From the NCBI GenBank assembly GCA_963920765.1, contig OY987247.1, positions 10,822,471-10,886,470 on the forward strand: a stretch of DNA of 64,000 nucleotides. The letters run 5' to 3'. This DNA comes from Ulota crispa. Its lineage: Eukaryota > Streptophyta > Bryopsida > Orthotrichales > Orthotrichaceae. The notes under the pieces were generated by a model that was not told the origin of the DNA, did no database searches, and saw nothing but the letters and a program-made list of their open reading frames with translations. The position numbers were made by a program, and so were the translations under genes. Of the stretch, positions 11,055 through 57,829 are shown one piece after another. Position 1 is the first letter of the stretch. Every line of letters begins with the position of its first letter.

Positions 11055-11568
11055 GACGCCCTTTTGGTTAAATTGGTGGTATTCAAGCATCAGAAACTAG
11101 TGACCTAAATCTATCTCTGCACAAAAGTCAAATATTAGTCCTGTATAGATTTTGAGATTAACCCATTGACGTATGTGGTTGATTCTGGGGTGGGCAATCC
11201 TTTGAATAGCCATTTGGGGAAAATTTTAAAACTATTGAAAACAGATGTCTATTACAGATCTGACCATACATATGGAAGTATCTTGCAAGGCTTAGTGTTA
11301 TGCATCATGAATTATGCTTACTCTTTAGTTGTTATGGTCATCTTTTTGCATTTATTGGTGTATTTTCAGTGGTACTCTTTTAGTTTTTTCAACCCTCTAG
11401 CCACATGCCACCTCAGATTGGCTTGATTATTGTCCTAAACTCTTCACTTTCCAATTCTCCATGCCTGTCCCCTTTGCCACGTCATCAAATTCCTTAACAT
11501 GCTCTCTCTACAAACTGAAAAGAGGCAAAATCGACCATAAAATGGTCGACTAGGCATTAATGAATTAA
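11055..11568. other. 3' flank of the F-box gene and a solo right end of a TTAA element
   Basis: Contains the putative 3' UTR. At 11532-11564 lies GACCATAAAATGGTCGACT and then a degraded terminus abutting TTAA. The same palindrome and spacing form the right end of the element at 21182-21719, so this is probably a decayed right end of an older element. It shares one TTAA (11565-11568) with the next element. Confidence 0.45.
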
Positions 11569-12432
11569 CCCTTAAAGGTTTGTGCATCCAAAAAGTGGAT
11601 GCACCTTAGTCAGCCCTAATTGTAACTTTCAAAATATCAATTTTTGGTACATAGTTCAAACTAAGAAAATGAAGCTTGACAAGTTTCCTTTCTATTCCTT
11701 TTTTTTTTTGAAAAATGTCAAAAATCAAAAGAGTTATTGCCGTTGAAAGCTCCAAGTGTTAGAATCCAATTAACACAATATGGTCTATTTTTCATTTGTA
11801 TTTTCCACTCTTTAAATGCATTTTTCATTTAAACTCCAAAACTATGTTTCTCATTCTACCATTCATTTATGGTAGAAATTATAGCTTTTTTTAATATATA
11901 TTCTAATTGATATGATTTTACTTCCATATTTAGCTTTAAAAAATCACAATAATTTGAATATTCTATCAAATTTATTGAAAAAAACAACATAAATAGAAAA
12001 TGAATGTGTCTTCTAGTAAAAAAAATCAAATATTTATAAATTAATTAAATATAAGAATAAACATGGTTTGATAGTCAAATTTGACTATAAATTCTTTATT
12101 GTGGTTGTTTTGGGTGTAAAAAATAAAATAACCAATTGAAAATTTTTCACACTAATCTTTAATGGTGTTTGTACTTCTTTAAAAAATTCAAGTAATTTAG
12201 AATTTTTTTGCTATTTTAACTTATTTATGTTTATTTCATGAAAAAAAAATGATAACAATTATAAATTTTCATGAAACAAATTGAAAATTGAAATTTCTTG
12301 CAGTGATATGTCATTCATAGTTTCAAGCAATAGAAATATAATTTTTTTGTTTGAACACAATTTAAAATCCAAAATTATGCTTAGAAATGAAGTTTGACCA
12401 TTTCAAAATGGATCAAGTCCTTTAGGGGTTAA
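11565..12432. mobile_element. piggyBac-like MITE with TTAA duplication
   Basis: Body 11569-12428 (860 bp) lies between TTAA at 11565 and TTAA at 12429. The left end CCCTTAAAGG and right end CCTTTAGGGG are inverted repeats. The interior is very AT-rich and non-coding. Confidence 0.72.
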
Positions 12433-12839
12433 ACTGCCAAGTGAACGTAAGTTAGGGCAAATTGCTATAATAATGAAACTAGTGCTCATAGTTTTTGTCT
12501 TGGTATTTTGGCTTGGTGGAATGCATATGCGTGTTTGTGGGGACTGGGGACTGGGGACGTGATGAAAAGCTCAAATTTTTCACTAGGCAAAAATTGTAAG
12601 AGTTTTAGAAAAACTATCATTGGGAGATTGAATTTAGGAATCTTGAATTCGTATTTGGATTTAAAGATCCTGATTTGGTGAAGAACGACAGGGGAGGAGA
12701 TAAACTTAACCAATTACAAAATAGGGGCAGATTCTTACTTATTACTCATCTTTGTAGAAAAAGCTGACTATTTCCACCCTGAACCCCTCAAGCACGTATG
12801 AGCAGTCTACCAAGACCTGTTTCCCAGACCAGGAAACAG
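12433..12839. other. Intergenic AT-rich DNA
   Basis: About 400 bp between two MITEs. No gene or repeat end was recognised. Confidence 0.4.
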
Positions 12840-13257
12840 TAGGAGTAGTCACAGGTGCATTTTTACATTCTCAATCTTCACAGAAAACCATTGTAGTGCC
12901 TTCTCCGCGACTTGCGTGAGTGTAGTTCCGTGAAAATTGAGAAATTTTTTATCAGTGCCCAGGCATGAAGAAATGGGTTGAGAAAAATTTTGCGTGAGAA
13001 TTCTTGCCTTGATCCGTCTGTTTACATGCTTGTGAATTGCTTTTCACCCTTGCTTTTTCTGCTCCTCCAATTGATGGCCGTGTTGCCTTCCTTTAAGTAA
13101 AACATTCTCCATTCTTCATTCTTCATTCTCCATCACCCACAAAAGGGATGTCACACCTCCTTCCATGGAGAATTGCTCCCATTGACTCCTACATTCACTC
13201 AGCCATTTCTCAATCTTCACGGAAAATTCTGTCTCAGACCAACCGTGACAACCCCTA
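12840..13257. mobile_element. GGTAGTCAC-family MITE, copy 1
   Basis: 418 bp. Ends TAGGAGTAGTCACAGG and CCGTGACAACCCCTA are inverted copies. The interior has CTCAATCTTCACRGAAAA motifs near both ends and a facing partner, plus a CCAGGCATGAAGAAATG block. All are shared with the copy at 40234-40525. Non-coding. Confidence 0.68.
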
Positions 13258-14327
13258 GTGCACATACCCCACGTTCACCCTACCATCCTGCAGAGTGCAT
13301 TACAATGAGCACTGCACAATGTGCTTTGCCATGTGCTGGATTTCGCAGCACTTAATTAACCACTCATGGCTCACCATTTTACGCTCACAAAATTTTGTCT
13401 TTCCATGAGAAATTGACCATGTATTTAGAAGTGCAATTCCTAGTATATCTTGTAGAGTTTGGAGAGAAAAGGTAGGATGTCATAAAATTGCTCCTCTTCA
13501 AGTCTTCCAACTCAAGAATATATTTCGGAGTTTCCAATGTAGCAGTGGTGAACATTCAAGTAGGGATATCTTTGGAGCATCTTACTCTAATGTCAAAATT
13601 TGTAACTTATTCAATGAGAACTTAAAAACCATAATTCAAAGTACGTAGATTTAGGTCCAGGGTTGCCTCCCTTGTTTGCCTATCGAAGCTTTGCAAAGTG
13701 GATAGATTGTAACTTTTACTTGTACTCTAAGATTGATAGAAAATTGTGTTGAGATATGAAACCCCTTTTGAAAGTCTAAATCGTCACTTGTAGGATACAT
13801 TAGGGACATCCTACTTTAATTAATACTAGTAAGCATGTGTTACATCATAAAGTGTTGGCTGGTTTGAGCTCACAATGAAGGAAGAAATGCACCGTATAGA
13901 AGGTTTCTTCCATATATTCCAGATTTAAAAAACCTCTCAATCTTCACAAGGAAGATCAAATTATTCTTCTTTTTTGGATTTGGTAAATACTCTACTTACA
14001 AAAATGATCTTCCATAAATTAGATCTCATATGACTTTGGTTTGATGAAATTTGGATGGGAATTGGGTAGATCCAAAGCGTGTACCATGAACAAGCTTGAT
14101 GAAAATGGATTTTACTTTGCAATCCTTGTTGTATAGGACTAATATGACAAAATAGTCGATAATGTGCCAAGGCTATTTCTGATCTAGATGAAATTCAAGC
14201 AAGTATGCGTATGACATCTCCTTACATATCAAGAGGTCTAATACGTGGGAAAATTGGATGACATGTTATATATTAAGCCCTTCAAAATATCTTACAAACA
14301 ATTCAACCTATCATGCCAGCAACGATG
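13258..14327. other. Intergenic region
   Basis: AT-rich, no convincing coding frame or repeat ends seen. It ends with GCAACGATG (14319-14327), which resembles GCAACCCTG beyond the next element. Confidence 0.4.
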
Positions 14328-15433
14328 TTAGAGTGTGAGCAGTGAGCAATGAGCGTTGCACGTTGAGCAGTGAGCAGTTGGATTTGAGCAGTGAAAATTC
14401 ATATCTTACTGAAAATAACATATTTTAGAGTATTATTAAGTGAATTTGGGCCAAAAAATAGTAGTGGATAAACTATTAAAGCGGAAAGTTTATTAAATAA
14501 AATTGGAAAAAGAGAGCTTTTATGAACTCATCCAACGTTCAAATAAGGTCACGAAAGGTAGAAATAGTAGAAATTGTACTTTGTGCACATGAAAGGAACT
14601 TTGAACTAGATGAAAAATAAATTTCACTCATCCATGATCAAAAAAATTCATCCAATCATCCATCCAAGTATTATCCAATGAATGAGATTATGACGCAAAT
14701 TTTGGATACAAAAAGAAATGATGTTCAAAAATATGAAATTAAGATAACCTCTTTAGCTTCCAAAGAGATTTCAAGTTATGATATACTAACATTTACAAAT
14801 TCACTTGCACACTACAAACTTCCTCTTCGAAACCAATAAGGTCTCACATAAGACAGCTAAACAAATAGATGTAAAGGCAAAATTTTGAATTTTAGATAGC
14901 CTCTTGGGATTTTGAGAAGGTTGCGGGCTATGATAAACTCACGTTTACAAATTTGTTGGCACATATTAAACCTTCTCTTTGGAACCAAAGAGGTATCAAG
15001 GGAGTTGCCATGAGATTTTTCAAAGACTAAAAAGTTGAATTAGTAAATATAGATATGATACAATGACAACCTCCACAAACTCAAAGGAGGCTTTAACCAT
15101 AAAAACTCATGCTTACAAATTCTGTGACACAAGAAAGTCCTCCATTTTTAAATCTAATAGGTCACAAAAAGACAAAATTGCAATTTGTAAAAGAAAAAAA
15201 AGTTAAACTAACAACCTTAAAAACAATGCATATTAAGCCTCCTAAAAATCCAAAGAAACTTGAGTCTACAAGATAAGTTTGTTTGACTAAGTATATGGTC
15301 AATTGATAACTCCAAATGTGCTTTTGGTATTCCTTGACAAAAACAATAATATAGAGCAATAACTATTACTACTTATGCACATTAAAAAAAAACAATTCAA
15401 AAAACATTATTGATTTGCAACAACTGGTGCTTT

Positions 15434-15633
15434 NNNNNNNNNNNNNNNNNNNNNNNNNNNNNNNNNNNNNNNNNNNNNNNNNNNNNNNNNNNNNNNNNNN
15501 NNNNNNNNNNNNNNNNNNNNNNNNNNNNNNNNNNNNNNNNNNNNNNNNNNNNNNNNNNNNNNNNNNNNNNNNNNNNNNNNNNNNNNNNNNNNNNNNNNNN
15601 NNNNNNNNNNNNNNNNNNNNNNNNNNNNNNNNN
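15434..15633. other. Assembly gap (200 N)
   Basis: Exactly 200 unknown bases, so the size is a placeholder. It directly abuts the tandem repeat that begins at 15634, suggesting the array collapsed during assembly. Confidence 0.99.
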
Positions 15634-18036: not shown

Positions 18037-18350
18037 TAAGGTAGGAGGCTCTAAATTGGAGCACCTTCTCAAATGTACTCTATTTGTACATGTTGTTTTT
18101 CATAGCCCTTCAACAATGTACATGTGATGTACATTTGAGGAGGTGCACCAGTTTAGAACCCTATGACCTTTCCACTTCAAAATTTCATAACTAATTCCAC
18201 AAATTTTCAAAAAATATGAAATAACTTGGGTTAGATGCCAATTCTTCTTGTCTTTCAAGGAAAATTTACTAGAAAATACTTCAAGAAGTTTCACTTACCC
18301 AAAATTCAGTTTCAGCCCTTAGATGCTCCATTCATGAGCCTCCTACCTTA
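18037..18350. mobile_element. TAAGGTAGGAGG-family MITE, copy 2
   Basis: 314 bp between TAAGGTAGGAGGCTC and GAGCCTCCTACCTTA. The interior is the inverse orientation of the copies at 9339 and 43405, including the CTTCACTTACCCAAAATTC and ATTTGAGGAGGTGCACC blocks. Non-coding. Confidence 0.8.
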
Positions 18351-21123
18351 GAGTGCATACGTAACAAATTCTTGTTCTATGTTCTACTTAAAGGTAATAT
18401 TCTTATTGTTCCAAAGATACACTTGACATTAGTAGGTGCCCGGGGTAACAACATTAGTGTGTTTTGCATATAAACTAAAGGAAAATTCCAATTTTAAGGA
18501 AAGCTTTAGAACTTGATCTTGACTGTACGGGCATTCTTTTGTCTTCTTGCTTATTTTTGTGAAGCAAACTATAACATTACCCAACTACACTTTATAGTGC
18601 ACTTAGGTTGTCTTGCCTGAAAGTTGCCTCATGATTTATTGCTTGGTCACTTGGATGCACATGTGACTCTTTAGATACTAGAATTTCACATGGTTTAAGA
18701 TTAATTTGTTGTTTAGCAGCGCTATTGTTGTTGCCAAGCCCTTGTTGTCATCAAAATATATTTATTGCGATTATTGTTAATATGAGTTATTGTAGTATCA
18801 ATAAGTATTAATGTAGTATAAAATGTCAAGAAATTACTGTAGGGCAACCTAAATATACTATTTAATTAGCTAAGGCAATGTGACCATACAATTTCAATGC
18901 CCCATAGATTTTGCAGTGTTCCCAGTCCCACATACTGTAAAGGTTCCATTGAATTCTTCAACCCTAATTGGTCAAGGGGCTAAAAACTGGGAAATCCAAT
19001 TTCACGCTAAGTCCCAAATTGCAGGTCCCAATTCATCCAAAAAAAAAGTGTACAAGGCAACATTTTTGGAAGTTTTAGCACCAACAAAGTGAGAAAATGT
19101 TTTGGCATTAAAAAAATGGAATACAACTTAAAGACCTAGTTCCAACAACTCTTTGAGTACTAATATTTTGTAGTCTTTATTTTAGTCCATAGTTTTGTTC
19201 CTTGACAACCCAATAAATTGGGGCCCATCAAGACATTGGCACATTTGCCAGTTTTCAAAAAACTCTACGTGTCTAAATTAGGAATCTCACAATTGGATCA
19301 TAAACTTGTAAAATAATATGCACACTTTGTAACCACCACATTACACCAAATTTTGCAATAAAATGATGATGATACAAGACATGCTACAATGAAAATGTCA
19401 CATTTATTTAAGCCTAGGATATTCAAGTAAATTTGGACTTTCAAATTTTTCTTTTAATTTTGAATTAGGCAAAATTTCAAGAGATTTCTTGATATCTTGG
19501 CAAAACATTAACACATCTCCTGATATATAAGCAAAACGTGAGGCATTGCTAAATGTTTTGCATTTATCTCTAGAAATCTATTAAAAATGAATTTTTATTT
19601 CAAAATTTTGGACTAACTATATTTAACTAAAAATGGCTTAGAAGCCGTATGCAAGTAATTGTGGTAATGCACTAGATTAAAGATTATCATACATGAGCAA
19701 TTAAGTAAATAATGAATCAAAGACAACAAGAAAAAATTGGAGTGTGGGAAACGCTAGAGAAAGAGAGAAGAAAGCTATTTGGGTTCTCTACAATTAGCTC
19801 ATAGGTTCCTTGTGCAACCACTCTCATTTGCACACTTTGTCATATATTCTACACTACAAACCTTCTTGCTAACAAATTCTCAAGTTTTTCCTCAAGATGT
19901 TTGCACTTTCTCTCAAGAAGGATATTCAAGTTTAATAGGTTTCTCCATTTTTCATTTCAGCCCTTTTTGTGAAACAATGATTTTGACTATACATAGTGGT
20001 TTCATTGCTAATTTGTTTTCCGTTTCCTTGTATTCTCACACAAGACAAAGTCCATGCTTTGCACTTTTCTACACATTGCAAAGTGTGCATAATTTCTAGT
20101 TTTCTCATGAGGAAACTTGATTTTGCATGACAAACACTCCAGAATCTCCACCTTGAAAATATTTTCTTTCCCCCCTAAGGTTTATAACTCCCTAAGAAGA
20201 GGCAAAGCCCTTATGTGACATCAACAACCCATTTTGAAGTTGCAATAAGAACCGCCTCTAAAATAACAAGCACCAAGCAACAATACCACAAGAGGCTTTC
20301 TCCTTGTAGCATTATGGCTAGTTTCTTGAGTAAGGTACCTACTCAAACTTCATCAAGTTAACTTCTCTCCAATGTCTGGAGAAATTTTGAGCTTCATTAC
20401 AAACAAAAAAAAAAAAAAACCCCAAAGTTTTTCATTTTCAATTGGTCTTTCAAGTGCATGCACCAAACATTGCCTACCTATCTATACGATAATTTTTTTT
20501 TATAGATTAGACCAATTTTTATCCAATAAATCCAAACTTCAAATGATGATTTGATCATGTTGTTTAACTGATTTTCTGTTTTCTTTTTCGGATATCCCTG
20601 CCCATTGCTTCTCTCAATGCAAAGAAAGCCTCCTCCTCTGCCGTCCAGAGCCAATAAGTTTGTGTACAGAGACATTGATAGGCCCTTCCTGGAAAACAGG
20701 ACAACTTGCCATAATGCAACAAAAATTACAGGAAAAAAGAAAAAAACATCATGCTAGCATATGACAACATTTAAGTGTCAGTTGTGAAGGCTGGTCCATT
20801 GATTTGTATGCAAGCCTGGCTGCTGGGCTGGCCTCCCCTGGCACTTGCCCACTCATCACTTCACACCCCCCTCACTGAAGATGCAACCGCTTAGCCCCCA
20901 AGTAACAAAGGACATACATCAATTTCACAACAAGGTAAAGATATCTACAAGAAGAAGATGATGAAAAAAACAAAAAACAAAAAACAAAAAGAGAAGAACC
21001 ATTATGTATTCAAAAACTTGCTTCAAACGCTTAGACTATGACAAGAGACGCGTGGCAAAATGTTTGGCACATTTGGATGTATTGAAGTATTGATTACAAA
21101 AAAATTAGTAATATGTGTAGATA
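18351..21123. other. Gene-free AT-rich region
   Basis: About 2.8 kb. Short chance frames exist but none has domain-like sequence, and composition is uniform. A poly-A run lies at about 20405-20420. Around 20600-20880 the sequence is somewhat more GC-rich without a recognisable product. No inverted-repeat boundaries seen. Confidence 0.45.
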
Positions 21124-21920
21124 CAACGTGTTATTAGTTAAATTGGGAAAAACGGAGGTACCATTTTGTACTCCATCTTAACCCCTAAAGGTCTAAGGGG
21201 GTAAGAGCAAAACACAGATGTGTTATAAAATGGTATTTTTGTAACTTTGATGAAGTTTGTTTCAAAAGAGAAAATAAGAATCATAAGATTTAGTAATTAT
21301 CCATACAGTCAAACACTCAAAAAAAGTTTTGGATTTTTATGTAATGATTTAGAAGCATTTATCATTTAATATTCACTAGAATTACAAATTTTATTCATAG
21401 ATCTCAAAATTTGGTATGATTGGTTAAAAATAGACATTCTATCATAAACTTCAAAAATACAATTTTTTGAAAGGAGAGAACATCATTAGTTTCCTGAAAT
21501 AGTAAATTTTACAACATTAGCAAATATTGAAGTGTTTGTCTTTGAAAAATTCTCCTTGGTGGAGTTTAACTTGGATTGACATGATTCAAGTTAAGTTGGA
21601 AAGTAGACTTGATTTTCTATTACAAAAAAAAATGTTCATAGTAAAAAGGTTTTTTTGGTCTCTGGGAGCCCCAAAAAAACAAGTAGCGACCATAAAATGG
21701 TCAATTGGGCACTTAGGAGTTAAACCCAAAAAGTCACCTTAAACCAGATTCAAAGGTATTAGATTCAATATGAGCCACTAAGATTTTTTCTCTCACAAAT
21801 TCCTTCTCTCAAGTGAGGGCACGTGTACCAAAAAAACACTATGAGCTTGATTTCAAGTGGTCACCTGAAACCTTCAAAAGTCCCAAAATGCAATGTTTTT
21901 CCCAATTTGACAAATAATGC
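21124..21920. mobile_element. AACACCATATTA-family MITE, copy 1, split by a TTAA element
   Basis: Outer parts are 21124-21177 (TTAAATTGGGAAAAACGGAGG...) and 21724-21920 (...GTTTTTCCCAATTTGACAAAT), an inverted pair. The parts align to the uninterrupted copies at 23210-23464 and, inverted, 60890-61143. All three share GAGCCACTAAGATTTTTT or its equivalent and the GGGCACRTGTACC block. The interruption is the piggyBac-like element 21182-21719. Confidence 0.75.
21178..21723. mobile_element. piggyBac-like MITE nested in another MITE
   Basis: Body 21182-21719 (538 bp) between TTAA at 21178-21181 and TTAA at 21720-21723. It starts CCCCTAAAGGTCTAAGGGGG and ends with GACCATAAAATGGTC and then CACTTAGGAG. 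Its interior is shared with the element at 37232-38005 (AAAACACARATG, TTGTAACTT, GAAGTTTGTTTCAAAA). The host repeat has an intact copy at about 61.09 kb in which this position is a single TTAA. Confidence 0.85.
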
Positions 21921-21923
21921 CTT

Positions 21924-23180: not shown

Positions 23181-23209
23181 CCAATCTGAAAGAATTATCA
23201 GAAACACAA

Positions 23210-23464
23210 AACACCATATTAAGTAAATTGGGAAAGCAGGGGTCCCAATTTGTACGTCACTTGGATCTAGAGAAGTCACCCAAAACCATATTTGAAGGTA
23301 TCAGATACAATCTGAGCCACTAAGATTTTTTCCCTTGCAAATTCCTCCTCTCAAGTAAGGGCACATGTACCAAAAAAAATGTTGCACTTGGTTGTAGGTG
23401 ATATGTATAACCTTCAGAAGTCCTAAAATATACCCTTTTTCCCAAGTTCCCTAATATGGTGTTA
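23210..23464. mobile_element. AACACCATATTA-family MITE, copy 2
   Basis: About 255 bp. It starts AACACCATATTAAGTAAATT and ends with the inverse (CCTAATATGGTGTT). It is an uninterrupted copy of the repeat at 21124-21920, diverged at the position where that copy carries the nested element. Confidence 0.75.
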
Positions 23465-23584
23465 CAATGCAAATACACAACCATGTCCCAACAAAAATTA
23501 TTTAATTTATGAAAAACTGCCAAAACTTGTATCATAGCTATCAAAAATTTGAAAATTTAACAAAACTCATCAAAATTGATAGCC

Positions 23585-23948
23585 TTAACCCCTAAACGTT
23601 GAGGAGGACAAAAATTGTCCTTCAGCTCTCCAAAAGATTCTGTAATTAAAAAAAAGTCATTTTTCATCTGATTTTTTTTAGACGTGTCCATAAACATATG
23701 GTCAATCATGGAAGACAAAAAATTATCTCTTGAGAAGAATTCTTTTTTTTTGTTACCCAAAGTGTAATAAGATTCAGAAACATGGTGTTAGCTCCTAAGC
23801 TACCCTTCTTGCAATTTTCATGAGAGCACCATGCACTATTGACTTTTCCAACTTTTTGAAGCAATACTACTCGTGCCCATGCGCAAAACATTGTAGAATT
23901 CTACATGCCGGGCAAGCCACGGTGATCCATCCATCCTTTAAGGGTTAA
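23585..23948. mobile_element. piggyBac-like MITE
   Basis: Body 23589-23944 (356 bp) between TTAA at 23585 and TTAA at 23945. Ends CCCCTAAACGTTGAGG and CCTTTAAGGG. Non-coding. Confidence 0.68.
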
Positions 23949-24767: not shown

Positions 24768-27690
24768 CTATACCGGCGTCAGCTGCAAACAAAAATACCC
24801 ATCACAGTTCCATTAGTTCAAAAGTCATCCAGAAAACCAAAATCCAAACTTGATTCAAGGGGTTTGAAAAGTGATAAAATCGTAAAAGAGCTCCAAAAAC
24901 ACACCAAAGGCTTGCAACTCATTTTCTAGACATTTAATCCCATAATTCTTAGAAATTGATAAACTAGAATGTTTTTATTATTATTTTAGAAATCCAAACC
25001 GTTGATATTGTACACTACAATCGTGCATTTAGGTTGCGCCACACTAATTTCTCAACATTTTATACAACATACTTATTGATATTACAATAATATTCATCAA
25101 TAATTACTCGAAAAAACCATATTTTTTAAGGGTGTAGCAACAACAACAAAGTTGCAAAAACATAAACTAGCAACGTCCAAGTCATAAGGTCATAAACCAT
25201 GTGAACCCTTAGTATTGAGAGAGTTGCAAGCGCTTCCAAGTGGCCAAGCAATGAGTCATGACGTAACTTTTCAACATAAGGCAACCTAAATGTCATATTT
25301 TGTGTAAGAAGCTTGTTGCTCAATCTATACTAAAAAAATCAAGGGAAGATGACTAAGGTAGGAGGTTCATAAACCAACCATGTTCTATATGCATTCCCTA
25401 TCTAGGAATGAGTGACATGTTCCTTAAGATATTGATTATTGTCATTGGTGATTTAGGTAGGCTTACATGGTCAGTTTACGGACCTCCTACCCCTAAAGGA
25501 CATAGTGTGCCATTGCGACCAGTAGAATACGAGGTATTTTTCTTGTATTTGGACTAGATTCACACCTTTACTACATTTAAGATCAACAAAGAAGCTGGAG
25601 AATAGATCAAAGCCGTTCTAGTGATCTACTAGACATCCCAAATTAAAACTTCTTTTTGGTAACAAATGCTAGTTATAAGGCAGTGTATATACTATGCCCT
25701 ATGGTCCTTTAAGGATTAAATAGTTAGAAAATGGATGAGTGACACGTTTCTTCAATCTACTACAGTCATTGATGAGTGGGTTAGGTAGGCTTCCATGGTC
25801 AATTTGTGGACCTCCTACCTTAGTTAGAAAATAGCACCGTTGAGATCTAAACACATTGATTGTTGGTTACTCCGGAGGATTTGAGAGTTAAAAATGTTGG
25901 TGCATGTGAGTGAGGGTGAGATGGGGGGGGGGGGATGTTGGAAGGGACGTACCCAGCATTGGTTGCGGATGACGCCGGCGGTGCCGGTGAGCACGCCCTG
26001 GCGCCCCATCTTGAGCGTGGAAGCGATGAAGCTCTCGAAGAAGGCGGTGCGGTTGGCCGCCAGGCTCGTGACGAGGGGCTGCGTGCGAGGGTCGTTGTAA
26101 AGGGCCTGGTCGGACGTCATGACGCCGCGCCCGATGATGAGGTTGACGAAGTAGGAGGTGTCGAAGCTGTTCGGCGTCTGCAGGTCCATGAACGTCTTCA
26201 GATTCAGCGTCGCGAAGTCCGTCGCCTCGCCATTCCGCGTGCAGAAGTTGTACAACTCCTGCCCGAACTCCGCGTCCGGAAACGAGCTGTTCGCCGCCGC
26301 CTGATACCGGTCCTCGAAGTTCGTGCAGTGCACCTCCCCTATCGTGTGCGCCCCTGCCACCATCCCCCGCCACAAAACATTAGGTCATATGCAACCCCCT
26401 TAAACCCCTAAGCGTCACAGCGGATGTTTTCCGGATCTAGATTCCAAGAGCAGCTGAGTAATCAAACGTTACGATCTTAGCATCCATACGGTAGATTTTC
26501 ACAAACATTACAGATTTGCACTTGCTGGTAAGTTGGTAACAAATATCTATGGTGAATTTTTTCAATTATGGCTTACACTCTGTGACGGTTAGGGGTTAAA
26601 CCCCCGCAACTACTTCCATCTCTCCTCGTCTCCTCGCTTTTGGCAAATGCTTACGCATTTTAACTGAAACGCTTTCGAGACCTAAATCCGACCCCAATTC
26701 TTCGGGCAGAGAGTGCGTTAAGAGCGTTTTCTAGCTCACCTGAGAGGACGACGAGGTCGGTCTGATCTAATCCAGCGAGCGCCATGGACGCCAGCAAAGC
26801 GTCCACTTTCATTGTCGACAGGGGTACGCTGGCAGTCGCGGCGGCCAAATACGAGACGACGCCATCTCGACGCCCCAGATCGATGTCAAAGCTCGGTCCT
26901 CCCGACTGCATCACAAATATTAAATTCCACAGCTCCAGTCAGTACACTAGACTCACGTTCTGCAACAGCCCGCGTGGAATCAACACCCCTCCGTCATTGA
27001 TTTGGGTGTGATTGTAATCCCAGCGGAATCTTCTACTAAAAACCTCTAAATTCACTTATGGTCTCCCTTTCGGAAATGTTGCAAAAATCTCCGTGAGATG
27101 GATTTGAGCACACGGGGAGAGAAGATGGTGTCTTTGTGGAGACTAGACGTACACCGGAGTGGGTAATCTAGCAAAATGAGGATCTAGACAAGGTATAGAT
27201 GGGCTATGGGCGGTACCACGAAAACGGAGTTGACAGCAGCGAGGGCGAGAATGTCAGCGCAAGAGACGATCCCGGGACACGCGGCTTCGACGTTGGCTTT
27301 GATATCGTCGATCACCTCGAACTTCCCGAGCGTCGCACTGATGGTGGCGTCCTTCTCCGCTTGCACGGTGGCGGTGGAGTTGAGTAGAATGGACGCGTCG
27401 CACCCTGCCGCGACGCAGTCGTGGAAGAAGAGGCGCAGGAGCTTCCCGGGCGTCTGAATGTCCTGCAACACTGCGGCGTTCACTCGGTCCGCCACAATCT
27501 GAGTCAGGTTGGGACACGTCGTGGCGTAGAAGCCGAATTGCAACGCCGGTGCCGGCGATGGCGATATCGCCTGCTGCAACGAGCGCCGACCCCCGAACAT
27601 CGCACCCATGGGACATCCCACAACCTCGTCCACCACGCACAGAATCGCTACCACCACCAGTGACTGCCAGCACCGCAAAACCATCCTCAT
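24768..27690 (-). CDS. Class III secretory peroxidase, four exons
   Basis: Predicted 351 aa. Exons on the minus strand: 27690-27217, 26905-26740, 26353-25953, 24782-24768; phases 0, 1, 0; all borders GT/AG. Seen: a signal peptide (residues 1-25), a Pro/Ser linker, and the distal haem site with Arg86 and His90 (LRLFFHDC). The proximal site is His216 in LSGAHTIG. All eight structural cysteines are present (59, 92, 97, 138, 144, 223, 251, 346). Class III enzymes oxidise phenolics and other donors with hydrogen peroxide in the cell wall or vacuole. The second exon is 166 nt, exactly the size of the conserved third exon of classical plant peroxidase genes. The usual first intron is absent, so exons 1 and 2 are fused. 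The last exon is an inferred 15-nt microexon coding LTPV and stop, chosen because QCW is followed at once by a strong GTACGT donor and TTTGTTTGCAG precedes it. If unspliced, the frame would read on into a C-rich tail ending at 25824. Start ATG 27688-27690 fits the signal peptide. Confidence 0.92.
25354..25822. mobile_element. TAAGGTAGGAGG-family MITE, interrupted and partly duplicated
   Basis: In peroxidase intron 3 (24783-25952). It starts TAAGGTAGGAGGTTCATAA and ends GGACCTCCTACCTTA. A second right end (GGACCTCCTAC) occurs at 25490-25500, and the 85 bp before it recur before the final end (GAATGAGTGACATGTTCCTT against GGATGAGTGACACGTTTCTT). Between the two copies sits a CCCCTAAAGGACA...GGTCCTTTAAGGA element (about 25499-25715). 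Confidence 0.65.
25499..25719. mobile_element. piggyBac-like MITE nested in intron 3, left TTAA lost
   Basis: Starts CCCCTAAAGGACATAG and ends ATGGTCCTTTAAGGA followed by TTAA (25716-25719). The left flank is CCTAC rather than TTAA. A second, decayed copy of the same interior (ACACCTTTACTACATTT, CCCAAATTAAAACTT) lies at 44709-44940. Confidence 0.65.
26400..26599. mobile_element. piggyBac-like MITE in peroxidase intron 2
   Basis: Body 26404-26595 (192 bp) in intron 26354-26739. TTAA lies on both sides (26400-26403, 26596-26599). Ends ACCCCTAAGCGTCACAG and CTGTGACGGTTAGGGG are inverted repeats over about 16 bp, with one extra A at the left end. Its CTAAGCGTC end resembles the element at 35236-35471. 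Confidence 0.75.
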
Positions 27691-30343: not shown

Positions 30344-30711
30344 TAAGGTAACAACACCCATCTCCATCATGTTCCCGTGGGCGTCACCTAGCACTGTCAA
30401 TGATTGACAAATACAAAAATAAATGATTATAGTTGACAAAGTGATTGTTGTGGGTGACTAACATGATAATTTTGAGTGTCCCATCTCACTATTTAAAACC
30501 AATATGCATTATTTTTAGCATCTCTTACACACAACCATACAATTTTAGTAATTTTGGACTTTGAAAAATTATGCTTACAATCGGAACTTTGATATAATGC
30601 CAATGTTTTTGGTTTTCTCTTCCTAACTTGACAATAAATTTTCTGAAGTTCATCAATTGATTTTCTTACCCCAAAATCCTTAGTTTGACGCTTATGGGTG
30701 CTGCTACCTTA
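30344..30711. mobile_element. TAAGGTAGC/CCCAT-family MITE, copy 2
   Basis: 368 bp. It starts TAAGGTAACAACACCCAT and ends ATGGGTGCTGCTACCTTA. The interior (CATCAATTGATTTTCTTACC; CACACAACCATACAATTTTA) matches the arms of the palindrome at 7914-8729. The next element begins immediately after it. Confidence 0.78.
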
Positions 30712-30712
30712 C

Positions 30713-31334
30713 CCCCTAAAGGACTAAGCACCCTTTTTGGGGACAAATGGGATTTTGGGCATGTACCTATGGCTAAACTACTTTGCATGATTTTTTGAAA
30801 ATTTTATGGATGATGGGGAATTCAAAGATCTATGTGGGCATCTAACTATTTCTTCATTTTGACGTTTATTGAAGAAGTTAAAAATGAAGTTCTAGGAAAG
30901 GGTCCAGATTGGGCAGCCTAAAAACTTCTTTAACCCCTAAAGGACCAATTGTCCCCTCACGGGACAAATGAATTTTGGGCATGTATCTACATCTAATCTA
31001 CTTTTTGTGATTTTTTGAAACTTTTATTGAAGGTGTGGAATTCATATATCTATGTGGGCATCTAATTTTTCCTTCATTTTGACGTTTATTGAAGAAGTTA
31101 AAAATGATTTTTTGGAAAACAGACGAGATTGGGCAGCCCAAAAACTTCTTTAAAATTTGAATTTAAAAAATACATATATGAAATAGGTTCCTTAGACTTA
31201 TATATACAGAGGGAGCTTTGAATCATTCAATTTTGATAAAATTTTCAAAAAATCTCACAAAGTAGTTAAGCCATAAGTACATGCCCGAAATCCCATTTGT
31301 CCCCTAAAAGGGGGCTTGGTCCTTTAGGGGTTAA
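30713..31334. mobile_element. piggyBac-like MITE with a tandem half-copy joined at TTAA
   Basis: A complete copy, body 30934-31330, lies between TTAA at 30930 and TTAA at 31331. Its ends are CCCCTAAAGGACCAATTG and GGCTTGGTCCTTTAGGGG. In front lies the left part of a second copy (30713-30929) that aligns with 30934-31146 and stops exactly where the sequence reads CTTCTTTAA. The join therefore falls on a TTAA that both copies contain. Shared interior: GGGACAAATG, TTTTGGGCATGTA, TTTGACGTTTATTGAAGAAG. Confidence 0.82.
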
Positions 31335-34423: not shown

Positions 34424-34425
34424 TA

Positions 34426-35235
34426 CTTTTTTTAGGGCTTGCTTTTTGTTACACGGTCCTTTCTGGGTATGCGACCTCTATCTTATGGGTACTAGATTTC
34501 CTATGCCTTATCCTACCTGATTATCGTTATCTTTTTTTAGTAAAAACAAAGTTGATTAAGGTTGGAGGCTTGAAAATAATTTGGGTTCTAAAAACGTTTA
34601 CTAACATACAGATAGATATTGGATTCAAAAAAGTCCATATTATAAGTTTTAATGTACTAGCAATGAACATTTCAAGATGTGGACGTCTGTAGAGCCATTC
34701 CCATGATTAGAACTTCAGAAATTCATAACTAATTTTGCTAGAGTTCAAACAACGTCAAACAACTTGGATTGGATGTTACTGTAATTCCATTCATCTTTTT
34801 GAGAAATTTTCAATATTCTAACGGTTTTAACTACTCCAAAGGCACAGATGAGCTATTAAGGGTTGCTTTTACCCTTGAATGCCTAGCTGGTAACCTTGTC
34901 TGCCTTTTACTGTGACGTTACATTGGAGTGGCAAGTGTTCAAGTATTATAATACTATTTCTAAAAGTTGCAAAAATTGGTAGTGAATGTTGTCCTCACAA
35001 AATTGTTAGAATGGTAACATGAGACCTAATGCCATATTTTTTAATCTTCTCACAATTCACGTCACCTGAAAATATGAATGCATTTAATGAGGTTGTATTT
35101 TGCCTTCCATGGTAGATCATGTTTTTGTGATCACTTCAAACAAATATCAAACTAAAAATGGCTTTTCTTCATCTTATAGATTATTATTTCTTTGTTATTC
35201 TTTGGACAAAAGTTGTTCACCTTGGTGTTTATGGG
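34426..35235. other. Intergenic region
   Basis: No gene seen. TTAAGGTTGGAGGCTTGAAA at about 34557 resembles a left end of the TAAGGTAGGAGG family, but no matching right end was found. Confidence 0.35.
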
Positions 35236-35471
35236 TTAACCCTTAAGCGCCCCAGCAACAGGATCATGTCATTGGGGCCCAAAACTTTATCTCACTTTTT
35301 CTCTTACTTTGTACAATGAAAACAGTCATGGCTGGTCCACATCAGCAGAGAAGATAGTCCTTTTACAAACCCTGCAGGCACTTTTTCTGAATGTAATTTT
35401 CCAAACTGTGGTGGCCATTATACCGCATTTTCTCAAAAATCCTAAAATAAGTATGGACGCTCAGGGGTTAA
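35236..35471. mobile_element. piggyBac-like MITE
   Basis: Body 35240-35467 (228 bp) between TTAA at 35236 and TTAA at 35468. Ends CCCTTAAGCGCCCC and GGACGCTCAGGGG are inverted copies with mismatches. Confidence 0.75.
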
Positions 35472-36182: not shown

Positions 36183-37102
36183 TTAACCCGTACATGACCG
36201 TTGTCTCTTCTGGGGACAAATGGGATCTTGGGCAGGTATTTGAGGGCTCAATTTTTGTTTAGTTTTTTTGAAATTTTTGTTGAAGATAAAAAAAATACAT
36301 TAGCTTTTGGGGAAATATAAGTTTTATTTCAATACATGCCCATGAGCAAAATTTATGCCCAAATAAGCACAAATTTGGGGAGACCAAGAAGCAAATTTTA
36401 TTTTACAAAACATTGGATTCTTTTAAATTTTTTTCTTTTAGGTTTTAGTTTTGTCTACATCTGAAGCTTTGATTCATTCCATTTGGACTAATTATGAGAA
36501 AGTTATGGACAATCTTGTTTTTTGGGCAATTCAAGCATCTTCTTGAAAAAATAACTTACAAACTTCATTTTTGAATGTAAGCTTAACATTTTTTCAAAAA
36601 AAACTGTTAGGCAGAGTGAAGTTTGCTTTCTAGAACAATCTCACCATTGGGATTATTGTGTTCAATTCCATTGTAAGGTTTGAACAATTTAAGTTTTTGT
36701 TCAATCTCATACCTTCTTCTACCTAATTTTTTTTAAGAATGAAAATTAAGTATCTTTTGTTTCAATTTTTTTCCAAAGATTCTCAACTCAATTTCCCACC
36801 ACAAAAAAATAAACCTCCAAACTCTGTGGTGCTAAAATTCAAGTTAAGAAAGTTCAAAGTCAAATAATCTAATCATGTAAGGTACAAAAAAATTATTTTT
36901 TACACTTTAAATGCAAATATCTTACAATTTGTGAGGTGAACAATTTTGAAAAAAATTATACATTTTTATACTAGTCTAGTACAAGATCCTATGATTAGAT
37001 ATGAAAAAAGACAAATTTTCAAACTTATTTACGCTTTGCCATAGAACTGGTAGTGTTTAGTGCCTTTTGATAAAATACAGGCCCCAGTCCTTTAGGGGTT
37101 AA
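36183..37102. mobile_element. piggyBac-like MITE, 912-bp body
   Basis: Body 36187-37098 between TTAA at 36183 and TTAA at 37099. It starts CCCGTACATGACCG and ends CAGTCCTTTAGGGG. The left interior (GGGGACAAATGGGATCTTGG, GGCAGGTATTTG) matches the elements at 30713-31334. Its length equals that of the copy at 56914-57825. Confidence 0.8.
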
Positions 37103-37227: not shown

Positions 37228-38009
<782 letters not shown>

Positions 38010-41690: not shown

Positions 41691-43404
41691 TCGGCTAAAT
41701 ACTGTTTTGCTCAAGATTTCATGCATTGTTCTAGTATAGATAACATTTCTAGTTTCCACCATTTAAATACAAAAGGTTTTGAAACAACAATTTTTACAAA
41801 CTCAAACCTTCCAATAGAAGATGAGTGTAAAATTCAAGAAACCACTTTTACACAAAGAAGTAAATTTTGCCACTTGTTTTTTTAACAAAACTCTACTTTG
41901 GAATGGCCCGTTTTATACTAGTGTAGCCCAATTTGTAAAAATGAGTCTTTAAATTTGAATTTTTGAATAGACATTGCAAGGCTTGCACCATCATATTGTG
42001 CTTTGGATGCTATTTGAGCAACTAGTAAATAGTCTTGAGACATGGAATATCCATTGTACATGCACCACCCCCTTCTTAGCGCTTCCAAACAAAGTCTAGG
42101 CTCAAACATGGATCTAGAAGGGGCTAAAATTTCTACAAGTGCAAAAAAAAATGTACTCAACATCTTCCTCACTAGAATTAGGTGAACTCTTCCCCCAAAA
42201 TTTGCAATGGGGCTCTTTTGACAGAATCCTTTGTAGTTTATTAGTGAAATTTTGAATTGTGCATATTAATACACTAATCGTTTTTTTGGTTCATTCAACT
42301 TCAAATTTAATTGATTTTTCAAAATACTCAATTCTTTCATAAATGATTAGGTGTTTTGAAAGCAGCTGCTTGCAGTAGCTCACACATAAAATGAGCAAAT
42401 TACATATTAATGTTTTGAAATGAAAAACACAAACCAAATTCTTAATTGATACACAAGAATTTAAACATGGAATTGTGCATGAGTAAATAAAATAGCATGT
42501 AAATTTAAAAATGCATTTTTTATAAAATTTGTTTTTAGAAATGATACCAATTATCGTAATAGTAGTGAACAACAAGGTATAATAAGTGTTGAGTCACATG
42601 ACTAGTTTTTTTAACAAACCTCGGCTTCACCAACTCTTGTCATATGTCAAGAAACCTAACTGTTCAACCACAAACTTGTTTGTAATTGATAGAAGGGTAG
42701 GTTGATGGGAACATAGTTGAGAAGCCAAATGAATCATCAAATTAAATTAGTATTACTCTAAAGTATCATTGACCATAACTAGCACACCAAATTCTTTTAA
42801 TTGAGTTTAATTAAAATTTTATTGCCTTTTTGGCTTCAAAATCATCAAACAAACTGAAGATTGTCTTGAAAATACAATTGTAAGCGCTTCATTCAATATG
42901 ATTATAATTCTGGCTTGCTTTGAATTTTTGAAGCAAGATAATTTGGTAGTACAATTAAAACTCAAGAATCTTGATAATTATTTTATTTTTCTAAAATAGA
43001 TTTATTTTACAAGCTGTATTTTCACGAAATACCAAAGAAGTGTTTTCTTTTCCCTAGATAGCAATTAAAATCAAAATTTGGTAAGCATAAACTACTGCTT
43101 ACATAAATGAAAGAATCAAAAGATGTACGCAAATATGTTATTAAAGTATTTCCCTGATGATTTAGGGAAAATCGTTTTTAGAAGTCTATGTTTAAAATGA
43201 TGTTTATCCAGTGACAAAATTTGTTACATTATCAAATTAAAATTGACGAAACCAAGTTGGGAGTGGGCATTGAACTAGGACCTGTAAAACTGGAGACAAG
43301 GAACATATTGTAATTTGAACACTTCCAAGTCCCAAATTATTAACTTAGAAATCAATGAAAGTAGGGAATCATTGGGACTTACTATCTATGGAGATTTGAG
43401 CTTT
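41691..43404. other. Gene-free AT-rich region
   Basis: 1.7 kb with only short chance frames and no repeat ends recognised. Confidence 0.4.
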
Positions 43405-43733
43405 AAGGTAGGAGGCTCATGAATGGATCATCTAAGGGCTGAAAATGAATTTTGGGGAGGTGAAACTTCTTGAATTATTTTTCAATACAATTTTTTTGAA
43501 AGACAAGAAGAATTGACATCTAACCCAAGTTATTTCATATTTTTTGGAGCTTTGTGAAATTAGTTATAAATTTTTGAAGTGAAAAGGTCATAGGGCTCTA
43601 AAATGGTTCACCTCCTCAAATGTATTCTGCTTATTCATTTTTGAAACTTATGAAAAATAGCATGTACACATGAAATACATTTGAGAAGGTGGACGGTTTT
43701 AGAGCCTGAGCAAAATATGAGCCTCCTACCTTA
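43405..43733. mobile_element. TAAGGTAGGAGG-family MITE, copy 3
   Basis: 329 bp between TAAGGTAGGAGGCTCATGAA and ATGAGCCTCCTACCTTA. Nearly the whole interior matches the inverse of 18037-18350 (GACAAGAAGAATTG, CATCTAACCCAAGTTATTTC). The two copies are well conserved, suggesting fairly recent spread. Confidence 0.83.
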
Positions 43734-45411
43734 CCATCAAAATTTAGGCATTTCTCATTTTTAATTAATTTTCTAATTACATGCATTTAACATTTCACAT
43801 ATATACTTATGTTATAGTTAGACACAATCAAAAATCTAGCTGGTTATCATACACTAGATTCAAAAATTGACCACATTTTTGGCTATTTCATTCAACAAAC
43901 TTTCTATTGTTTTCTGGATCTTAACTTCCCGCTCATTGTTGGAACTCAAAACAATGCGTAAACGGCTTCTTTTATATAGAGATGGGGACACAAAGATCCA
44001 TTCCTACATCATACCCCTCCCATGCACTCAATACTTCATTAAATTCAAATTTTTTAATCATATCTCTTAAAATTTCTAATAATAAATTGCGAATGTATTG
44101 GTTTTAGATTGAGGGTGGATTTATAATGATTTTAAAAGTAATTTAATTGTAATTTGATGTTTTTTTCAAGTGTTTTTTTATTAACACTTCTCCTAATTCG
44201 ATTCAAGTCAAATTTTAGTGCATTGTGTTCCTCTTTCTATCTACAAGAAGCTCACTGGAGTTGAGACAATTTCAAGCTCTAAAAGGTGGTTAAAAGCTAA
44301 AAAAAAAGTTAGTGGAAGACTAGAAGTTCATGAATTTAGTGTACTTGATAATGCCTAATTGCGCTTGACATGGATTAAAGGCATGGAGTTAGAATAGTCT
44401 CCACTTCAAATTTTAATGCATATTGTCTCTTGTCATAAGCTTTTAAAACATGTAAGTGGTTTAAGATTTGATGAAGAATTGAATACAAGGGAAAGATTTG
44501 AGTGAGGAATGGATCTTTTTGTCCACATCTCTAACTATGTACAATGACAAGGTAAACAAAAGAATTAACTTCCAAAGTCAACCGCAAAATTCTTGCACGA
44601 TTTTTGGAGAAGGTGGTTTTTTCTCATACTAAGGGCAAACTTCCATGTTGCATCAAAATTAGTCACAATGACTAGCGTTATTTCAACTTTGAAAATCCAA
44701 ATCCTTAGCCCTTAAACAACCAATCGACCACAGCAATCAGTACAATACAATATGTTTTTTGTGAATTTGGAATGCATCCACACCTTTACTACATTTGAGA
44801 TCATCAAAGAAGTTAGAATATAGATCAATACGGTACGGTTCTAGTTAGCTAGTCAAGATCCCAAATTAAAACTTTTTGTTGGTAGCAAATGCCAATTGTA
44901 TAGCAGCGCACATACTATGTCCTATGGTCGGTTGGTCGTTAGTTTGCTTTGGTTCTTCTCGCAAGAAACTTGCCAAAACACCACTTTCAATCATTTCCAA
45001 TTTTGTTATTTTCTGATACACTTCCATGCATGGCACAATAATTCCTTTGCGGTTTATGTAGTTCTCTCATGTATTATTTTTCTATTAGATGCATAATGGA
45101 AGTTGGTCCATAGAGCATTATTTTGTACCCACACAAGAAAACAATAGGCTCAAAATATTTTTTGGGTGAAAAAGATCAATCAATGCATGAACTTGTCAAA
45201 ATACACTTTTTGGCATGGCAAGAAATGTAATTCCCTATGCATAACAACTCAGTTAAGTATAAAATTTTCTTCCACAATTAGTAGGTTGAATAATCAACAA
45301 TGGAGAAACTATTTGCTTTTGCAAACAAGGAGATTTGTCATTCATTGAAAGTTGATGTACCTAGTTGGATTAGTGAGGAAAACATGTGATCAATACTAGA
45401 AATAAGAAATA
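43734..45411. other. Intergenic region with a decayed TTAA element
   Basis: 44709-44940 is a diverged copy of the element at 25499-25715 (left end TTAGCCCTTAAACAACC). The rest is AT-rich without a gene. Confidence 0.45.
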
Positions 45412-54425: not shown

Positions 54426-56057
54426 GTTGCATCTTCACCCTACAAACTACCAACCCTAATCTCAAAATGAAGGCTCTAAACTTATTCTAAAACTACAACT
54501 CAATTTTAGGGGTGATTGCTATAAACACTTAAATAATTTTTTTGTGTGACAAAATTAACATTGACAATGTGTCTAAAACACATATTTACCTCAAAATAGA
54601 CTATTTACATGCTAAAATTCAAATTGTAAAGCATTAGAAATAAGTTTTTTGCAAATTTTAAAATTCTAACTTCTAATATATGAATGTGTTAATTTTCTTT
54701 TTTAAAACAAATCATATCTTTTTTATTTATGTCTTCTATCTTTAAACTTTAATAAAATAATGAAAATAATAATTACTATTATTATGAAACATAAATTTTT
54801 AAGCTTTCAAAGAGTTTTAATTGTAGCTTTTAAACTGATGTTAATAACAATAATAATAATAATTGAATTTATGACTCAAATACAACTAAGTTACAACCAA
54901 CACATGCTTGGAGAAGATCATAATGATCTCACTACAACTCATGTAAATCTAAAATACAATTAAACCGCTAAACCTACAGTTTAATAAGTTAACATAAATA
55001 CACTCATTTTAAATAGTCGGTTGGAATTGGAGTAGGAAGAGCATAACATTTCTTGTTTTGTAAACATTCTCTGGTAGGTGCTATTGAATTGTCCGCCAAA
55101 GATGACTTATTAGCATGTGCAAGGTATTAATAAACATTTGGTTATTGGCACTCTATGTAATGCACTCATTACTAACATTGATGAGATGAGCTAGTCCAGA
55201 CATTTTAAACAACTCAAGAGAATGTGTTGAAGAAGAACAAGCAATAAACAACTGAACTAGAACAACTACATAACAAGTACACAACAATTGCAAGAGTAAC
55301 TGAGTCAGTTTGTAGTCGTTTAGTAGCCAGTGTATAGTTTTGTAGTTGTTGTTTAGTTGATGTAAAGTCGGTGCTTAGTCTTGTAATTGTTGTATAGTTG
55401 ATATCAAGTCAATTTACAATCAAGTAGTTTTTTAGTAGTGGCAATGATCTAGTTGTTTTCATGACCAAATTTGAAGATGGAATTCTCAAAAATATATCAC
55501 AAATGCCGCAAAATAGTTCAATTGAGAAGAAAGACATATTGCATCTATAATATAACCGCATCAATATAGTCCCTAATTAGATGTAGCATTCCAACACTAA
55601 TCAGCAACTGTGGAACAACTAGGAAACCACTCATTAATGTGCACATCTTCCAACCAAAATAAGAATGGTATTGGGAGTTGCAACACGGGCAGCCTAAATA
55701 TGAGTTTTATTAGTTGTTTAATTTAATTCGACCAAGAGTCGTTTTATAGTTGTTCTATAGTAATATTGTAGTAGTAAAAAAGAAGAAGTCGTTTATTCAT
55801 ACCACTCACATACAACTCTAAGTCAAAGATGTCAAACTGCTCTGACGGCAGCAAAGATTTCATCTGATCATGGACCCAAAATCATTCATCCCAAAATATA
55901 TACAACAGACCTCATCCCCCAAGTCAAATAAACAACTACACTACAATTGTTACAACTTTAGCCATGACCAGAGTCGCTTTGTTGTTGTTGTGTAGTTGTT
56001 TAGGATAGTAAGTTGTTTATTGTCAGTCAGATTTACCAATGTTTTCTTCTAGTGTTA

Positions 56058-56909
56058 AAGGAATGTTGACATTTTGACAATGAGTGAGTGACAAAGACCA
56101 TATTTATTGAAAAATAGAATGTTCAAAGCCATAATTTTCCAAAAAAGTCCTCTAGCTTTGCAAATGAGTAGTTTTTACTTTGGCATATGCCAATAGAGTA
56201 GCTCTATAATACAATATGGATAGCAATAAGGCAAGTTCTTGTATTGGTACAAGTGACTTGGTCCAAAGGTTGACTTACCTAGCCCATGTAAAAGAACCTT
56301 CCACATAAGGAGCTTGAGAGAAGAACATTCTTTTTGTTAGGTTTCTTCCTCTTCAAATTTTTTTTTTTTTTTTTGGAATGAATTTGAAATGTTTGACTCT
56401 TCAAGAAAAATAATGACATGTTGATCCACAAGAGTGTCAAAATATGTTATTTTCACATAATGTAGAGTATGAAAATATCATATTTGAATATAAGATCTTT
56501 TTAAGACTTGTCAAAGTTAATAATGTCAACAATAGAATTGGTTGTTCAAACTCAATATAATCTATATAACATGTTATAAGATTATTTCAAAATCAATGCT
56601 CTTTTCCAAGAATAAAAATGCACATTACAATTGTCACAAACTATGACAAGATTTTGTTGAACTTGCAAAAATGTCACATATGATGTTTTCATAAACTATG
56701 TAAAGTTTTCATGAATGTTGTGTTGCAACAAAGCTTTGCTTCATAGTAACTTGAGGTAACTTTAGTGTTAAGATTTTGTTCAAACAAGCTCAAGCAATAG
56801 TGGAAAAAGATGTCCACAATGATTGTGAACTTTGCCCTCAACAACTGCAAATGAATCATAATGGAGTTTTCTTACTTTGTGGACATGTTTTTGCTAGTGA
56901 ATCAAGAGT
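56058..56909. other. Intergenic AT-rich region
   Basis: No gene or repeat end recognised; a T run at about 56359-56375. Confidence 0.4.
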
Positions 56910-57829
56910 TTAACCCCTAAAGGACCAAGGAGCCCACTTTGGGCTTTATGAGAACTCGGGCAGGCTCTATTGACTTCATAATTTGGATATTTTTCATGAA
57001 ATTTTTAGGATGGAGGCTACTCATCATAATCTACATGTGAAGCTTTATTTCATGTCATTCCATTAAGTAATGCAAAAGTTATAAGGTTTTTTCAATTTCA
57101 ATGTCAAACCAGGCAGCAAAAAAAATATTCTAATATTTTTATTTTTTTATTTATAGAATTGTATAGATTGATACCTACTCAAAAAAAATTGAATCACTCA
57201 ATTCCAAATAATGAGGTAAGAGTTAAAAGGAGTTTTATTTTGCGGGCAATGAAGGTAGGAAGAGGGTAGAAAATACATATAAAGTTATCTTTTACTCTCA
57301 ATTTTGAAAGTTTTCAAATGAAAATGAAAATTCAAGTTATGAATTGCTTGTTAGAGCATTCTCACCATTGGGATTAACAATTTTTAAATTCTTCCAAAAC
57401 TTATTAGCATATTAGTTGAATCTCTCATTCATCAATACCTTTCACTTTACAATTTTTGTAAAAATGAATCCAATTTTATTTTGGTTAAATTTTTTTATAT
57501 ATGCTTTCAATCCATTTTCCAACATATTGCCAAAATTGGACAAAAAATACAACATACTTGTTTTTCTCTAAAAGGTTTGTAAAACAAAACTTCACCTTCT
57601 TGAAGGACTAGAAAAGCCTACATTTTGAAATGTAGGCACATTGATCTTGCAATTGGTGGGGATGTTCATTCTGAAATTTTGGAACGATGTACTTGTGCAA
57701 GTTAACCAAAAGATCCTACGGTTAGATTTGTTAAAAAATAAGTTTCAATGAAGATTTTGGCCTTGCTTTGGGGATTAATATTTTGAAGCAGTTTTGGGCC
57801 TCTCAACACGAAAGAATTTTAGGGGTTAA
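56910..57829. mobile_element. piggyBac-like MITE, 912-bp body
   Basis: Body 56914-57825 between TTAA at 56910 and TTAA at 57826. It starts CCCCTAAAGGACCAAGGAGC and ends GAATTTTAGGGG. The interior (ACTCGGGCAGGCTCTATTGA near the left; GTTAGAGCATTCTCACCATT in the middle) parallels the 912-bp copy at 36187-37098 (GGGCAGGTATTTG; TAGAACAATCTCACCATTGG). Confidence 0.82.

Follow-up and report, generated by a model that had tools for sequence, protein, structure and literature searches.

The 64,000-nucleotide stretch of the moss Ulota crispa analysed here (C6:10822471-10886470, hereafter the window; genome of 274.8 Mb in 157 contigs) carries a set of short TTAA-bounded elements. These are almost certainly non-autonomous derivatives, or miniature inverted-repeat transposable elements (MITEs), of piggyBac-superfamily DNA transposons in a land-plant genome, with transposase-bearing elements of ~5-9 kb and TTAA-CCC ends as the source of transposase. 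This reading had been put forward from the sequence letters of the window (the original prediction) and is supported by the TTAA target, by a 4-bp target duplication and by elements with the same ends that encode a transposase of family PF13843.

TTAA-bounded elements in the window

Facing pairs of ends were sought with an exact TTAA, no more than 3 mismatches to CCCCTAAAGG and a spacing of 100-1000 bp. The window contains 9 such pairs, equivalent to 8 distinct elements (56910 is paired with two right ends), while 100 dinucleotide shuffles gave a mean of 0.03 and a maximum of 1. At 4 mismatches discrimination is poor (10 pairs; shuffle mean 1.62, maximum 8). When up to 3 mismatches are allowed, the window contains TTAACCCCTAAAGG at 32 places, where 6.4 would be expected. 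The eight TTAA-bounded copies of the original prediction are exact in every coordinate and have TTAA on both sides; within each copy, 11 to 14 of the first 14 bases of the two ends are identical, TTAA included. A ninth copy of the same design (26400-26599) is probable rather than exact. An extra A follows its left TTAA (TTAA-A-CCCC), and 8 of the 14 first bases agree in register; a one-base shift gives more in common (CCTAASCGTCACAG, by eye). Two further copies had correctly been described as decayed in their outer bases. These (25486-25719 and 44709-44929) are 77% alike over 25520-25706 and have a dispersed relative in L028 (80.5% and 75%, respectively).

Three features were added to those first reported: a partial copy (30709-30929) immediately ahead of 30930-31334, a minus-strand relative of 23585-23948 (34958-35169, 70% over 213 bp) and an empty-site paralogue of 21178-21723 (60888-61144). 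The second of these adjoins an end-like site at 35239, and the TTAA of this site is common to 35236-35471. The features are as follows, with strand in brackets where one was assigned and positions within terminal inverted repeats (TIRs) counted as TIR bp:

11565..12432: MITE, 868 bp, TTAA-bounded; paired ends
21178..21723: MITE of family A, 546 bp, inside a dispersed repeat; empty site in 60888-61144
23585..23948: MITE of family E, 364 bp; paired ends; left palindrome ~23605-23621 (TIR bp 17-33)
25486..25719: MITE of family C, 234 bp, left TTAA now CCTA; relative at L028:8208-8438 (80.5%)
26400..26599: probable MITE, 200 bp, between two peroxidase exons; extra A after left TTAA
30709..30929 (+): family B, partial, left end alone (TTAC); aligns to the L025x left end at 83.9% over 180 bp
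30930..31334 (+): MITE of family B, 405 bp, fold-back of two left ends; L025x alignment
34958..35239 (-): family E relative ending near 35239 and sharing TTAA 35236-35239; 70% over 213 bp
35236..35471: TTAA-bounded element, 236 bp, ends CCCTTAAGCG / CCCCTGAGCG; paired ends
36183..37102 (+): MITE, 920 bp, left end and piece of right end kept; L025x and L039 alignments
37228..38009: MITE of family A, 782 bp; 82% over 456 bp to 21178-21723, 80% to L023
44709..44929: decayed family C copy; self-comparison, L028 relative
56910..57829 (+): MITE, 920 bp, B-type left end; paired ends; palindrome ~56931-56945
60888..61144 (-): repeat paralogue without the 21178-21723 insertion, single TTAA; empty site

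The copies had been presented as a single family; self-comparison of the window instead gives several. Family A consists of 21178 and 37228, family C of 25486 and 44709, and family E of 23585 and 35239. Family B consists of 30709, 30930 and the ends of 36183 and 56910. The elements at 11565, 35236 and 26400 are singletons within the window. A second full-length family A copy is present at L023:182-726 (78.8% to 21178..21723), and for family E partial relatives are present in L014 (75% over 317), L018 and L034. The ends of 35236..35471 look, by eye, like those of L010 (CTCCTAAGCG / CCCCTAAGCA); this element has no blast match to the transposase-bearing elements. A long (AAT)n microsatellite (37759-37940) lies within 37228-38009.

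Neighbouring piggyBac-type elements were seen with one common TTAA at 35236-35239 and 30930-30933 in the window and at L023:723-726, as if the duplicated TTAA of one element had served as the target of the other.

Target site and its duplication

The exact 14-mer TTAACCCCTAAAGG occurs 15,411 times genome-wide, and its reversed pattern occurs once. When the first base is replaced, the other three bases sum to 654 occurrences (control 2); for the fourth base the sum is 595 (control 8). The outer T and outer A of TTAA, the two bases for which the original prediction had proposed a genome-wide check, are thus each conserved in ~96% of ends. Outside TTAA the flanks show no comparable conservation, with an excess of T directly before it (29/61). 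The consensus of 61 ends, chosen by likeness to the first ten bases, is CCCCTAAANG[AC]CCAAG, and so the ends have the CCC (CCY) start that is a trait of the piggyBac superfamily.

The paralogue at 60888-61144 has one TTAA where 21178-21723 sits in its own copy of the repeat. This repeat, which also occurs at 23209-23463, is dispersed and has the inverted ends AAACACCATATT. Because TTAA is palindromic, the empty site alone cannot part a TTAA duplication from a TA duplication. The two are parted by off-consensus ends, 189 of the 200 listed being taken into the pairing. Of 15 off-consensus facing pairs, 11 are flanked by direct repeats of one and the same altered 4-mer (five TTAG, four CTAA, one TTAT and one GTAA), where random re-pairing would give agreement in 20% (binomial p ~1e-5). 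Eight of the 11 agreeing pairs were fetched, and the sequence of all 8 is as listed. As altered 4-mers recur on both sides, the duplicated unit is 4 bp and not TA, and a 4-bp TTAA target duplication is characteristic of the piggyBac superfamily. There is no sign of a longer duplication in the 60-nt flanks of these 8 pairs (best 11-13/20 ungapped bases over all offsets). Two disagreeing pairs, L046 (C1:16651906-16652837) and L047 (C1:36270978-36271901), are MITEs with mirror images (TTAG...CTAA and TTAT...ATAA, respectively) in place of direct repeats.

Transposase and partner elements

At least 120 matches to PF13843 (piggyBac transposase family) were found in the genome, the best with an E-value of 1.3e-73, and none in 14 control genomes. 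Transposase frames are similar to the solved Trichoplusia ni piggyBac (E-values: 4.1e-20 and 1.8e-17) and to piggyBat (E-values: 5.8e-17 and 1.2e-11). Three catalytic aspartate contexts are present in the L011 frame; the aspartates in these contexts are presumably D268, D346 and D447. The L011 motifs are ATIDEM, LTLDNFF and GVDVADQ, aligned to LTIDEQ, ITCDNWF and GVDTLDQ of 6x67. By eye, the L011 and L012 frames have Cys/His-rich C-terminal tails.

Flanks were read at 21 transposase loci (and, in less depth, at L033-L035), and TTAACC-type end pairs were given to 11 elements from the 21. The L009 element (5027 bp) has a second copy in L018, with 90.5% identity over 5029 bp. This similarity starts and stops at the L009 TTAA ends; in L018 the right TTAA is intact and the left reads TTCA. 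In L025x (8829 bp), L026x (8530 bp) and L011x (8033 bp) the transposase lies between CCCCTAAARG ends. The longer elements that share ends with the MITEs, for which the original prediction had proposed a search, therefore encode a PF13843 transposase and not another type, as in other members of the piggyBac superfamily.

Long end matches link three of 12 window sequences (30709, 30930 and 36183) to these partners; 56910 has matches of only 32 and 18 bp to L025x. In 30930-31334 the left 171 bp are 86% identical to the L025x left end (E-value: 2.6e-52), and this left end returns in inverted orientation in the right 122 bp (82%), so the element is a fold-back of two left ends. The element 36183-37102 aligns to L025x over 105 bp at the left end (78.5%) and over a 124-bp piece of the right end (68.5%), and to L039, which has TTAG on both sides, over 903 bp (76.7%). 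A 939-bp element in L017 retains 216 bp of left end and 460 bp of right end. Nine of 12 separately fetched MITEs match the L025x ends, each with a best E-value of 7e-32 or better. L037 and L044 have no match, and L045 matches an inner L011x stretch only.

ORFs (open reading frames) of 322-539 aa lie upstream of the transposase in L012, L013, L014, L015, L023, L026 and L029. None of the seven matches a Pfam family at an E-value of 0.1, and they may be N-terminal parts, a second gene or chance frames. Some transposase matches occur as pairs in opposite orientation, 15-109 kb apart, with equal or near-equal scores and equal stop counts (C7:18203169/18223004, C2:36765124/36779670 and C10:676128/785346). 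These are possibly inverted segmental duplications.

A palindrome near TIR bp 25

The cysteine-rich domain of T. ni piggyBac binds as a dimer to a palindrome that spans bp 17-33 and has its centre close to bp 25 (PMC7351741). A left-end palindrome at this position is found in part of the elements studied here. Folding of bases 15-50 is stronger in the window ends than in their shuffles (mean z -1.27, 22 ends). When each possible axis was scored, TIR bp 25.0 came first among 25 window ends and second among the 63 ends of the fetched set. The independent ends differ from a control offset with p 0.011. Among the 11 transposase-bearing elements, the best left-end palindrome lies at bp 24-25 with a score of at least 5 in 6 and at least 6 in 4, compared with 0/11 for the right ends of the same elements; an axis at 24-26 with a score of at least 6 was found at 2 of 200 random TTAA sites. 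In 11565..12432 the axes are at TIR bp 25 (left end, ~11582-11604) and bp 24.5 (right end), and in 30930..31334 the left palindrome is at ~30946-30970.

The usual family B palindrome is TTGTCCC-n-GGGACAA, and it is weak or shifted in, for example, L026x, 30709, L038 and L039. In other families the palindrome arms are unrelated to those of family B. Hairpin enrichment beside the ends was initially weighed as a sign of another type of element. This was rejected, since hairpins that lie at TIR bp 25 of left ends are better explained by a palindrome to which a dimer binds. By analogy with the insect element, the left-end palindromes are predicted to be a docking site for the cysteine-rich domain of the transposase. 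We see even chances that several old, diverged native piggyBac lineages seeded thousands of MITEs and that the palindrome changed in sequence while its axis stayed at TIR bp 25, which would mean that the docking geometry is conserved and that the sequence recognised by the cysteine-rich-domain dimer co-evolves.

Proposed model and alternative explanations

The model for the origin and movement of these elements runs thus. Elements of ~5-9 kb with TTAA-CCC ends supply, or once supplied, the transposase. Alignments of some copies show that MITEs arose by internal deletion that kept the left and right ends, and those of others that the left end was doubled into a fold-back. As in insect piggyBac, the transposase would grip the first bases of each end, while the dimer formed by its C-terminal cysteine-rich domain would grip the left-end palindrome centred at bp 25. 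The element would then be excised and inserted at a new TTAA, with the 4-bp duplication as the result; the target and its duplication are the steps observed here, whereas a dimeric transposase on the ends, a hairpin intermediate and seamless excision are presumed from the superfamily.

Several observations weigh against this reading. Eight of the 12 window sequences (11565, 21178, 23585, 25486, 26400, 35236, 37228 and 44709) have no match longer than 34 bp to the 11 transposase-bearing elements; a piggyBac origin of these eight is suggested by TTAA and the CCCYTAA end and, for 11565 and 23585, also by the bp-25 palindrome. For most of the 11 elements the end pair is the best guess from the sequence, without confirmation by a second copy. 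Four of the 15 off-consensus pairs disagree (two of these have one left end in common), and the other repeat copy, 23209-23463, is diverged at the insertion spot, lacks TTAA there and is uninformative. The C-terminal Cys-rich stretches have no Pfam zinc-finger match at an E-value of 1. The folding signal is weaker in independent ends (mean z -0.60, standard error 0.16, 63 ends), and in the fetched set high scores are also reached by axes at 14-15.5, which lie within or next to the fixed TIR, with 15.5 exceeding 25. Finally, all three CCCCTAAARG partners contain in-frame stops. Together with the ~70-90% identity among the family B MITE copies compared, these stops speak for an old amplification. 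At L033-L035, where stops are few or absent, the flanks gave no convincing end pair and no intact element.

The alternative with most in its favour, itself improbable, is that another TTAA-duplicating superfamily with look-alike CCC ends moves some of the window families. Sola3 elements carry a Sola transposase between TTAA ends. Kolobok elements duplicate TTAA and have 5'-RR / YY-3' termini (PMC9587614). The TTAA target fits either, and families A, C and E as well as 11565, 35236 and 26400 are unmatched among the 11 transposase-bearing elements. The termini here are 5'-CC / GG-3', however, and on this ground, with no search of the genome for Kolobok or Sola made, Kolobok is rejected for the CC-ended elements; both candidates are opposed by the CCCYTAA end common to the families and the bp-25 palindrome in 11565 and 23585. 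Less probable still is a Tc1/mariner (Stowaway-like) origin, in which a TA duplication with a preference for TTAA would produce elements that start with A and end with T. A single TTAA at the empty site fits this origin too, TTAA being palindromic. It is contradicted by the 96% conservation of the outer bases, by the copying of an altered outer base to the other side in 11/15 pairs and by the PF13843 transposase in elements with common ends; the duplicated off-consensus 4-mers rule out a TA duplication.

PIF/Harbinger (Tourist) elements make a 3-bp TWA duplication, which does not fit the duplicated 4-mers, outer base included, or the TTAA on both sides. CCCTAAA is the plant telomere word, and it lies within the end core, so the ends might in principle be telomere-like or simple repeat words paired by chance. 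This is the least credible explanation of all: the 15,411 exact ends (one for the reversed pattern), an inverted pairing far above shuffles and conservation that extends over 100-180 bp exclude it. The piggyBac reading is therefore retained.

Relationship to known piggyBac systems

Among the closest parallels is T. ni piggyBac (PDB 6x67/6x68; PMC7351741), which is alike in TTAA target and duplication, CCC ends, DDE_Tnp_1_7 transposase and a left-end palindrome near bp 25 (bp 17-33 there). It differs in that the palindrome sequence here is another one and varies by family, the elements are longer (8.0-8.8 kb), the host is a plant and the MITEs number thousands of ends. piggyBat of Myotis lucifugus (PDB 9c0f) has a transposase of the same family and simple 15-bp TIRs (PMC8086355), whereas a palindrome is added in many of the left ends here. 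Among piggyBac families of animals, unlike the host here, rare duplications include TTAG and CTAA (PMC10813416), the two commonest rare ones in this genome.

Plants are listed among the hosts of piggyBac-like elements (PMC8086355; PMC10813416), which occur in most eukaryotic lineages (PMC9499001), and a plant review lists PiggyBac among the superfamilies and as a tool (PMC10794571). In the fern Ceratopteris richardii, also a land plant, 1,230 copies (122 kb) are classed as PiggyBac (PMC6890710). In the part of that paper available this is a trace annotation without analysis of ends or transposase, compared with 15,411 exact ends and at least 120 transposase matches here. Term searches of the main texts of moss, fern and lycophyte genome papers did not find 'piggybac'. 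The original prediction held that piggyBac is not known as abundant MITEs in land plants: no documentation at such abundance was found in an incomplete literature search, but occurrence in plants is already published. The piggyBac expansion in this land plant is genuine and its abundance unexpected; no priority is claimed.

piggyBac is a workhorse of animal genome engineering, and in the plant literature examined its presence goes no further than a brief annotation or use as a borrowed tool. A plant genome with genuine piggyBac copies offers natural ends and transposases of plant origin, and the bp-25 palindromes suggest an end geometry kept between insect and plant. There is also a warning for annotation, since plant MITEs with TTAA flanks may have been wrongly assigned to Stowaway or Tourist.

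Other contents of the window

Two window exons encode a class III peroxidase (Pfam PF00141), and the presence of these exons indicates that the window DNA is plant. Among solved structures, peanut and banyan peroxidase are the best matches to the first exon. Among the other window frames are an F-box match (Pfam) and a Myb/SANT-like domain match slightly under the Pfam cut-off (26.3 vs 27 bits). No curated RNA family reaches its gathering score in the window. An assembly gap, a run of 200 N, is at 15434-15633.

A big nested inverted-repeat structure with ends GGCTCGGTTTACTGCACATACG occupies 6398-8874. Within it, 6398-6823 and 7405-7828 are 92.7% alike, and 7829-8814 is a near-perfect palindrome (90%). 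It looks like a long-TIR or fold-back element of a different kind from the TTAA elements. A separate dispersed repeat family (9338-9643, 18046-18353 and 43401-43733) has members that are 73-84% alike, with ends approximately TAAGGTAGGAGGCTC.

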